From: a virus
Virus record (IMG/VR): IMGVR_UViG_3300021165_003225
Span: 1-42,172 of that record
Length of the DNA stretch: 42,172 bases
Direction: 5' to 3' (one strand)
The notes below the pieces were generated by a model. That model did not search any database. It was not told the origin of the DNA and saw only the letters and a program-made list of their open reading frames with translations. Both the position numbers and the translations under genes were made by a program. Shown one piece after another: positions 33,609 through 35,713 of this stretch (within the stretch, counting starts at the first letter, position 1; every line of letters begins with the position of its first letter).

Positions 33609-34217
33609 ATGGCAAATTTTTGGACAGATGGCAGAATAGAACCAAAAAGACAAAATCGTTGGGTTGTTCAATTTGATGGCATATACAATGGTAATATGTA
33701 TTTTGCTACAAAGGTGGGAAGACCATCAATTGAAGTGACAAGTAAAGCACATAAATATCTAAATCACACTTTTAATTATCCAGGTCGTCCAGAGTGGAAA
33801 CCAATCTCATTAACGATGGTTGATACAGCTGGTGGCGTTGTTGGAGATTTAGCTAATCGTGGAACTGATACAATGAAATCGCTACTGCAGGTTCTAACAG
33901 CCGCTGGCTATGTGGTTCCATCTTCTGAAGCTAGTTTAAATACTATTTCAAAAGGAAAAGCTATAGATGCTCTTAGTTCACGCACCGGTGCTGATTCTGG
34001 AATTACTGCTGCTAATGCAAATGGTGTTACTGTTTCACTAGTTAACGCAGAAGGCCAAACGATTGAAAAGTGGACACTTAAAAATGCATTTATAACAAAA
34101 TACACGCCAAGTGAATTGAGTTATGAAGATGATGGTATCGCAACAGTAGATGTTGAAATCACATATGATTACTGCATCTTTAATGAAGATACAGATAAGT
34201 TATTTACACCATCCTGA
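33609..34217 (+). CDS. 19: Tail tube protein (T4 gp19-like)
   Basis: A 202-residue inner tube protein; T4 gp19 is 163. The N-terminal PKRQNRWVVQFDGI and TKVGRPSIEVTSKAHKYLNH, followed by HTFNYPGRPEWKPISLTMVD, are strongly typical of T4-type tubes. The C-terminal WTLKNAFITKYTPSELSYED and IATVDVEITYDYC complete the fold. A Ser/Gly/Asn-rich insertion at about 100-145 explains the extra length. Ribosome site AGGAG. Located just after the sheath as in T4. Confidence 0.93.
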   Translation: MANFWTDGRIEPKRQNRWVVQFDGIYNGNMYFATKVGRPSIEVTSKAHKYLNHTFNYPGRPEWKPISLTMVDTAGGVVGDLANRGTDTMKSLLQVLTAAGYVVPSSEASLNTISKGKAIDALSSRTGADSGITAANANGVTVSLVNAEGQTIEKWTLKNAFITKYTPSELSYEDDGIATVDVEITYDYCIFNEDTDKLFTPS

Positions 34218-34293: not shown

Positions 34294-35148
34294 ATGAGAG
34301 ATAATGAAGATAGATTAGGTGCTCTAACACAAGCTGAAGCACCATTAGCTCAGATGCAAGTTCAAACAGCACAAGCAAGTCCATTAAGCTTTGTTGCCCC
34401 AACAGAGTTTGTTGATCTACCATCAAAGGGAGAATTCTACCCCGAAGGTCATCCACTTAAAGATAAGGATAAAATAGAAATTAAGTTTATGACTGCAAAA
34501 GAGGAAGATATTCTTACCTCGCGTTCACTTATTAAGAAAGGTGTGGCGATTGATAGAATGTTGGAAAGTCTCATAACAGATAAATCAATTAAAGTAGACA
34601 ATTTGTTAGTTGGGGATAAAAACGCTCTTATAGTTGCATCACGCATTTCAGGCTATGGTTCTTCGTATAAAACAGCTATAACTTGTCCAAGCTGCGGAAC
34701 TAACGCTAAACACGATTTTGATTTAGAAAAACTAAACATTCATCGTTGTGAAAACTTGCAAGAAATAGGCATTACAAAAACAGAAAACAATACATTCTTG
34801 ATTGAATTATTAAAAACAAGATCAACTGTTGAAGTAAGACTTTTGAACGGCAAGGACGAAAGTGAAATTGCAGAATTAGCAGAAAAAAGAAAGAAGAACA
34901 ATCTTCCAGAAGAACTTTCAACTTCTCAAATGAAAGCTTATATTGTTTCTGTTAATGGCAATAAAGATAAAACATTCTTAAAACAATTCATAGAAAACTT
35001 ACCAGCTATTGATGCCAAAACATTAAGAAGTATGTATCGTGAAATAACTCCAAATATTGATATGAAGCAACAATTCACTTGTTCTTCTTGTTCCTTTGAA
35101 CAGGATATGGAGGTGCCCTTTACGGTGGACTTTTTTTGGCCTAAGTGA
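34294..35148 (+). CDS. 26: Baseplate hub protein, gp26/T4_baseplate-like
   Basis: A 284-residue protein of the T4 gp26-type (T4_baseplate) family. The start signature DLPSKGEFYPE lies at residues 41-51, followed by KDKIEIKFMTAKEEDILTS. A zinc ribbon is built from CPSC (Cys131, Cys134) and CSSC (Cys263, Cys266). The last codons contain a run of seven T at 35131-35137, after which a second frame encodes another 61 residues with no usable start codon. The gene precedes the tape-measure gene, where tail-assembly chaperones lie in other tailed phages. Both a hub role and a chaperone role are possible. Confidence 0.75.
   Translation: MRDNEDRLGALTQAEAPLAQMQVQTAQASPLSFVAPTEFVDLPSKGEFYPEGHPLKDKDKIEIKFMTAKEEDILTSRSLIKKGVAIDRMLESLITDKSIKVDNLLVGDKNALIVASRISGYGSSYKTAITCPSCGTNAKHDFDLEKLNIHRCENLQEIGITKTENNTFLIELLKTRSTVEVRLLNGKDESEIAELAEKRKKNNLPEELSTSQMKAYIVSVNGNKDKTFLKQFIENLPAIDAKTLRSMYREITPNIDMKQQFTCSSCSFEQDMEVPFTVDFFWPK
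35131..35137 (+). other. Candidate programmed frameshift site, run of seven T
   Basis: Zero-frame codons are TTT TTT TGG CCT AAG TGA. Slipping +1, or -2, of tRNA-Phe on the T-run leads into GGC CTA AGT GAT GAA and 61 more codons. The zero-frame stop lies only three codons after the run. Confidence 0.6.
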
Positions 35149-35323
35149 TGAATACATAGAAAATGTTTACGAACAGTTTTTTCTATTAAAATATCACGGT
35201 GGTTGGAGTTTTACAGAAGCGTATAATCTACCAGTTAAAATCAGAATATGGTTTCTTAAGCGTTTAGTAAAACAAAAACAAGAAGAGAAAGAAGCTATCG
35301 AAAAGGCAACAAAGAAAACATAA
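35138..35323 (+). CDS. C-terminal extension of gp26-like protein reached by frameshift
   Basis: 61 codons in the frame +1 (equivalently -2) to the gp26-like gene. The protein begins GLSDEYIENVYEQFFLLKYH and continues GGWSFTEAYNLPVKIRIWFL, then a charged helix KRLVKQKQEEKEAIEK. Its composition and the 'GGWSFxEAYNLP' motif look like real protein. Yet no ATG or GTG exists in frame from 35096 onward; the only possible start is a TTG at 35096 inside the gp26-like gene with no ribosome site. The product is therefore most likely made as a fusion, as for lambda gpGT. A stand-alone protein from an unusual start is the alternative. Confidence 0.6.
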   Translation, partial: GLSDEYIENVYEQFFLLKYHGGWSFTEAYNLPVKIRIWFLKRLVKQKQEEKEAIEKATKKT

Positions 35324-35386: not shown

Positions 35387-35713
35387 ATGTCAGATAAATT
35401 GGTTCCATTAGTTTTAAATTTAAATGAAAAACAAAAAAATAAACTTGATGAAAGTTTTTTAAGAATGTTTGGTGGCTTAATTAAACTAATGATGCAAAGA
35501 ATGCTCGGAGGGTCAACACCAGAAATTACTATTCGTGGAACCGAACAACAAATAGCAGCTCTTAAAGATGCTCTTTCTTATGAAAAAAAGTATTTAGAAA
35601 CTTTCTATTCTCTTGGCCTAGATAATCCTCGCACATATCGTTCAAAAGCAGAATTAGACAAAGCAACTTCAGCTTTTGAGAAGACAACTGGTCTAAAGTG
35701 GCCATTTAAATAG
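35387..35713 (+). CDS. Small protein upstream of tape measure
   Basis: A 108-residue helical protein with GAGG ribosome site. It starts MSDKLVPLVLNLNEKQKNKL and has LIKLMMQRMLGG, then a beta strand/helix with ITIRGTEQQIAALKDALSYEKKYL. The end is NPRTYRSKAELDKATSAF. The 'TIRGTxxQIxAL' piece, followed by 'EKKYxExxxxxGLDxPxT', looks like a family specific to T4-like phages, but I cannot assign it. Its position between the frameshifted gp26-like gene and the tape measure suggests a tail assembly factor. That is inference. Confidence 0.55.
   Translation: MSDKLVPLVLNLNEKQKNKLDESFLRMFGGLIKLMMQRMLGGSTPEITIRGTEQQIAALKDALSYEKKYLETFYSLGLDNPRTYRSKAELDKATSAFEKTTGLKWPFK

Follow-up and report, generated by a model that had tools for sequence, protein, structure and literature searches.

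Comparative sequence evidence for a putative +1 frameshift in a tail assembly chaperone gene of a T4-type virus

The window analysed here, meaning the whole stretch of 42,172 nucleotides of a 42-kb IMG/VR virus record, carries a T4-type tail module, and the features around the locus of interest are listed in Table 1. The gp26-like ORF matches PF12322, the family of T4 gp26 and gp51, with an E-value of 1.2e-12 and 48.4 bits against a curated cut-off of 24.5. It is situated between the tail tube gene and the probable tape measure gene, which is the position of a G/GT-type gene and the one given in a preliminary description of this DNA. The 5′ neighbour is identified by its phrog_4542 match, and the tape measure call is by synteny: immuto and LIS04 have a gene annotated as tail tape measure in the same place. 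The window gene itself matched no PHROG. Mel-JY01 has a CDS 72 aa long where the window has the 108-aa ORF.

Table 1. Features of the chaperone locus in the window.
Feature	Position	Strand	Basis
Tail tube gene, directly 5′ of the gp26-like ORF	33609..34217	+	phrog_4542 tail tube protein, E 2.2e-19
gp26-like ORF, putative short tail assembly chaperone form, 284 aa	34294..35148	+	PF12322, phrog_150
Shine-Dalgarno-like GGAGGTG, candidate stimulator or pause element	35109..35115	+	sequence
Slip site UUU UUU UGG (proposed)	35131..35139	+	block nearly invariant, 118 UGG-group loci
Extension in the +1 frame (61 codons and a stop), C-terminal domain of the putative 342-aa long form	35138..35323	+	
108-aa ORF between chaperone and tape measure genes	35387..35713	+	without PHROG or Pfam match
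Probable tape measure gene, 839 aa	35727..38246	+	synteny

The gp26-like ORF ends with GAC TTT TTT TGG CCT AAG TGA, the stop codon being at 35146-35148, so that, as first described, the frame closes three codons past a run of seven T (35131-35137). The second frame of 61 codons is likewise real: it is the +1 frame GGC CTA AGT GAT GAA TAC ..., running from 35138 to 35320 with its stop at 35321-35323 and a translation beginning GLSDEYIENVYEQFFLLKYHGGWSFTEAYNLPVKIRIWFLKRL..., and it contains neither ATG nor GTG. Joined to the upstream frame it would give a product of 342 aa. The +1 open frame reaches further 5′ of the slip site, where it holds a single TTG, at 35096. The preliminary description had noted the absence of a ribosome site as well, and this stands only in part, since a Shine-Dalgarno-like (SD-like) GGAGGTG is present, followed by no ATG, GTG or TTG in the +1 frame.

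The check by alignment of homologues that had been proposed with the description placed the extension in the +1 frame at the same codon pair in 80/80 relatives, these being the IMG/VR relatives from one scan, the first, and including one (L046) that ends shortly after the joint. All scans together gave 256 loci with a gp26-like ORF, which an automatic rule sorted by the frame of the extension into 173 +1 loci, 66 −1 loci and 17 without assignment. Among the latter, L116, L185 and L193 are too short for a call, L095 and L096 look like −1 loci and the other 12 look like +1 loci by eye, with the limits that L046 and L129 are incomplete and the extension of L196 is interrupted by a stop. Removing duplicates left 161 distinct +1 loci for analysis. 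The isolates Microcystis phage Mel-JY01, immuto, GXN1, LIS04, Bacillus phage SP-15 and RM378, with gp26 identities of 26-37%, likewise have a +1 frame that stays open and is joined at Phe-Phe or Phe-Leu. The codon differences in the extension between the window and the close relative L013 were 13 synonymous and 1 non-synonymous when read in the +1 frame, and 2/13 and 1/13 in the other two frames; in the comparison with L001 the +1 frame had 10 synonymous and 3 non-synonymous differences. This pattern of substitution indicates that the extension is under purifying selection in the +1 frame. Annotation of the isolates Mel-JY01, SP-15, immuto and LIS04 gives the extension as an ORF of its own, cuts it short or leaves it out, and the present analysis corrects these annotations.

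The codon triplets at the joint of the 161 loci were UUU UUU UGG in 110, UUU UUU UAC in 32 and UUU CUU UGG in seven, and the remainder include UUU UUU CGU, UUC UUU UGG and UUU CUA UUC. Three biases were found at these codons. The second codon was UUC in 0/153, although in these genes 26% of all Phe codons are UUC; the base preceding the codon pair was U in only one of the 161 loci against a background of 37%; and the codon before the pair was GAC in 66 loci and GAU in one, opposite to the bias elsewhere in the genes. All three persisted in 77 dereplicated loci, with p-values (2e-9, 1e-15 and 8e-20) that are nominal only, because the loci are related to each other. A U in the preceding position would create U_UUU_UUU, and its near absence therefore points to avoidance of a −1 heptamer. 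The −1 loci, on the other hand, carry U_UUU_UUC in 66/66. No lambda-type −1 heptamer X_XXY_YYZ was found at the joint in the window, where the preceding base is C and the second frame is +1.

The same triplets bear on the direction of the shift, which had been described as either +1 or −2. Of these two, +1 is favoured, because re-pairing one base forward is possible at 161/161 loci, either by tRNA-Phe or by a Leu tRNA moving from CUU to UUU, whereas the same re-pairing rule disallows −2 at 12 loci, namely those with UUC UUU, UUU CUU or UUU CUA sites (for instance UUC UUU UGG, UUC UUU CGU and UUU CUA UUC), and permits it at 149. A −2 shift like that by which the G/GT pair of phage Mu is made (PMC3498833) would be permitted on UUU UUU U itself, as is +1, but given these 12 loci we regard it as highly improbable. 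A run of seven T is also a plausible site for RNA polymerase slippage or for a sequencing error, either of which could bring the two frames together. The same frame relation is however kept where the run is broken (TTT CTT TGG, TTC TTT TGG, TTT CTA TTC) or shorter (TTT TTT CAC), and random error would yield neither the retention of TTT TTT TGG in 110 distinct loci nor the avoidance of a preceding T, which makes this explanation extremely improbable.

Another explanation would be that the extension is a separate small gene, translated from a non-AUG start of its own such as the TTG at 35096 or by termination and reinitiation at the gp26 stop. Gene callers annotate the extension of Mel-JY01 as a CDS starting at TTG, an ATG overlaps the stop of the gp26-like gene in Pseudomonas phage Cygsa01 (TAATG) and is found at that stop in the related locus L007, and an ATG or GTG occurs upstream in the +1 frame in 72/161 loci and within the next 22 codons in 88/161. 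These starts are nevertheless not conserved: 51/161 loci are without any ATG or GTG, and in 123/161 no such codon has an SD-like motif before it. The +1 frame of 53 loci meets a stop no more than 5 codons 5′ of the slip; ATG, GTG and TTG are all lacking nearby in 30 of them, and in 10 so are CTG, ATT, ATC and ATA. A separate gene would furthermore leave the bans on UUC and on a preceding U unexplained, and we consider it very unlikely.

A possible stimulator was found on the 5′ side. Counted from the second Phe codon, a GGAGG occupies about −25 to −21 in loci of the UGG group and about −34 to −30 in those of the UAC group, and in the UGG group the mean anti-SD affinity peaks at this element, above all upstream background. 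The Glu codon at the element in the UGG group was GAG in 61 loci and GAA in two, compared with a background of 28% GAG, which suggests selection at the codon level. The element lies about 19 nt 5′ of the slip, a spacing unlike that of known SD-stimulated +1 sites. Downstream RNA structure gave no signal as a stimulator. The stretch just 5′ of the slip (about 35074-35134 in the window) was somewhat more stable than shuffled sequences in the UGG group, with a mean z of about −1.1, and in the UAC group the fold stability of a segment spanning the slip reached a z of up to −1.5 relative to shuffled sequence.

The gp26-like ORF and the extension were modelled separately from table-11 translations. 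The gp26-like model was confident (pLDDT 92), and its residues 163-253 gave as top three PDB chains YqbN (Z 5.5), the HK97 tail assembly chaperone (Z 4.7) and 5ir0 (Z 4.5), the remaining chains having Z 3.4 or less; all values are under 8, and the tool cautions about the range into which the top ones fall. The chains that match the model best are, at moderate Z, siphophage-type tail assembly chaperones, an N-domain fold of that kind being possible. Foldseek gave no significant match of the gp26-like model in the PDB, with the HK97 chaperone ranking sixth, and the PDB sequence search with the gp26 profile returned nothing relevant. The extension was modelled as a helical hairpin (pLDDT 88), whose weak viral structure matches include Gp51 of Prochlorococcus phage P-HM1; in the VIA fold comparison, which covered 4 chains, none matched it at Z 2 or more. 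The extension also showed a weak relation to the C terminus of T4 gp51 (hhalign P 0.0015 over 28 columns), and the window fusion matched phrog_634 across the junction weakly (E 0.088). The corresponding fusion of cyanophage Sf-FS3 matched phrog_150 and phrog_634 across its joint, the latter with an E-value of 6.1e-28.

Our preferred explanation, to which we give a probability of about 0.88, is programmed +1 ribosomal frameshifting that would yield a short (284 aa) and a long (342 aa) tail assembly chaperone. It is from sequence that we infer both that the shift occurs and in which direction. The majority of ribosomes would read GAC UUU UUU UGG CCU AAG UGA in frame and produce the short form. 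In a fraction of them the P-site tRNA-Phe would re-pair from UUU to the overlapping UUU, one base forward, before UGG is decoded, and these shifted ribosomes would go on to the long form with its predicted helical C-terminal domain. The roles of the two forms are taken by analogy from lambda G/GT: the region shared by both would bind the tape measure protein, and the less abundant C-terminal domain would bring in tail tube subunits. As in a G/GT-type pair, the second ORF has no conserved start and a conserved frameshift site joins it to the first, as judged from comparative sequence evidence. Comparative genomics, synteny and fold comparison support two proposals of the preliminary description, the joining of the frames by frameshifting and the role of the gp26-like protein as a tail assembly chaperone (TAC).

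Among the relatives, the extension follows U_UUU_UUC in the −1 frame in cyanophage Sf-FS3 and Rhizobium phage IC12. For L191-L261 and L007, very large phages included, the distance from the −1 joint to the zero-frame stop is 10 to 23 codons among the examples listed. In a 46-protein tree, which has several long branches and weak deep forks, 3 changes account for the states +1, −1 and duplicated, compared with a mean of 13.7 after shuffling. A related gene pair was also observed in Actinobacteria and Chloroflexi (L262-L341, e.g. L312 and L289), in loci of contractile-injection-system type near a DUF6760 match (about 3001); from DUF6760 we take these to be contractile injection systems. Their upstream zinc-ribbon ORF aligns to residues 165-275 of the gp26-like protein of the window (hhalign E 3.4e-7) and their small DUF6760 ORF, which is in the −1 frame relative to the zinc-ribbon ORF in 80/80, aligns to the extension (P 5e-5 to 8e-5). 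A G-run of 5-8 marks the junction in 78/80, and a GTG or ATG overlaps the stop in 64/80 and is absent in 16/80. The pair may be expressed by either reinitiation or −1 frameshifting, and the two ORFs are possibly a chaperone pair of the injection systems. We lean towards a wider interpretation in which a dedicated +1 shift, selected against −1, would be lineage-wide in a T4-like group, related lineages would use −1 shifting or duplication, and the injection systems would have a homologous pair. If true, several decoding strategies would lead to the same short and long output within one chaperone family.

The link between T4-type and lambda-type tail chaperones that had been drawn from the window is supported by these results. 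It is not new, since TAC genes of T4-like phages were reportedly identified by Vladimirov, Gautam and Davidson in 2022 (Virology 566:9-15). Of two papers citing Vladimirov et al. 2022, the PRFect paper reports from it a short gene alongside a long, fused one in some T4-like phages (PMC10885494) and the Adele paper cites that work for polyT −1 sites (PMC12846349). The conserved +1 site in a T4-like group appears to be new, no report of it having been found in a literature search that left most subscription journals and the full text of Vladimirov 2022 outside its scope. The review of Atkins et al. 2016 describes G-T frameshifting as conserved 'except T4' (PMC5009743), and against this exception the present loci would be T4-type phages with a tail-chaperone frameshift, in the unusual +1 direction. 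The site is compact and has many natural variants, and the rules of +1 versus −1 slippage on U-runs are therefore directly testable.

T4 gp26 and gp51 appear in the literature as hub assembly chaperones (PMC3004832). Both are full-length PF12322 proteins, the domain they have in common with the window protein, and gp51 has an extra C-terminal part. The laboratory phage seems to make the same short and long pair from two separate genes, whereas the window would do so from one gene and a frameshift. Lambda gpG/gpGT resembles the proposed pair in having a short protein and a rare frameshifted long form encoded between tail tube and tape measure, and in a second ORF without an independent start; it differs in that lambda shifts −1, while the window has a proposed +1 shift at UUU_U, PF12322 and CxxC zinc-ribbon-like motifs. 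The −1 group of PF12322 (L007, L191-L261, Sf-FS3 and IC12) has a homologous gp26-like protein with an extension after a Phe-Phe pair, but the shift is in the opposite direction and a U precedes the pair in all 66. The +1 site of E. coli prfB (RF2), CUU_UGA, has a stop codon next and an SD 3 nt upstream. The CUU_UGG of seven relatives is one base away from it, but the window has neither a stop codon at the shift nor an SD at that distance, the next codon being UGG and the SD-like element about 19 nt upstream. At the UCC_UUU_CGU of influenza PA-X, +1 shifting occurs by slippage of P-site tRNA-Phe from UUU onto UUC (PMC3498833). The proposed mechanism is likewise P-site +1 slippage on UUU, for which PA-X is a published precedent with C as the following base, and UUU_CGU itself is found in several relatives; PA-X differs in belonging to a eukaryotic virus, in its unrelated protein and in having CGU next where the window has UGG. 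Halovirus HSTV-2, an archaeal virus unlike that of the window, is a myovirus whose tail chaperone very likely uses a +1 shift (PMC5009743), and it is by this published direction that the window locus is likened to it.
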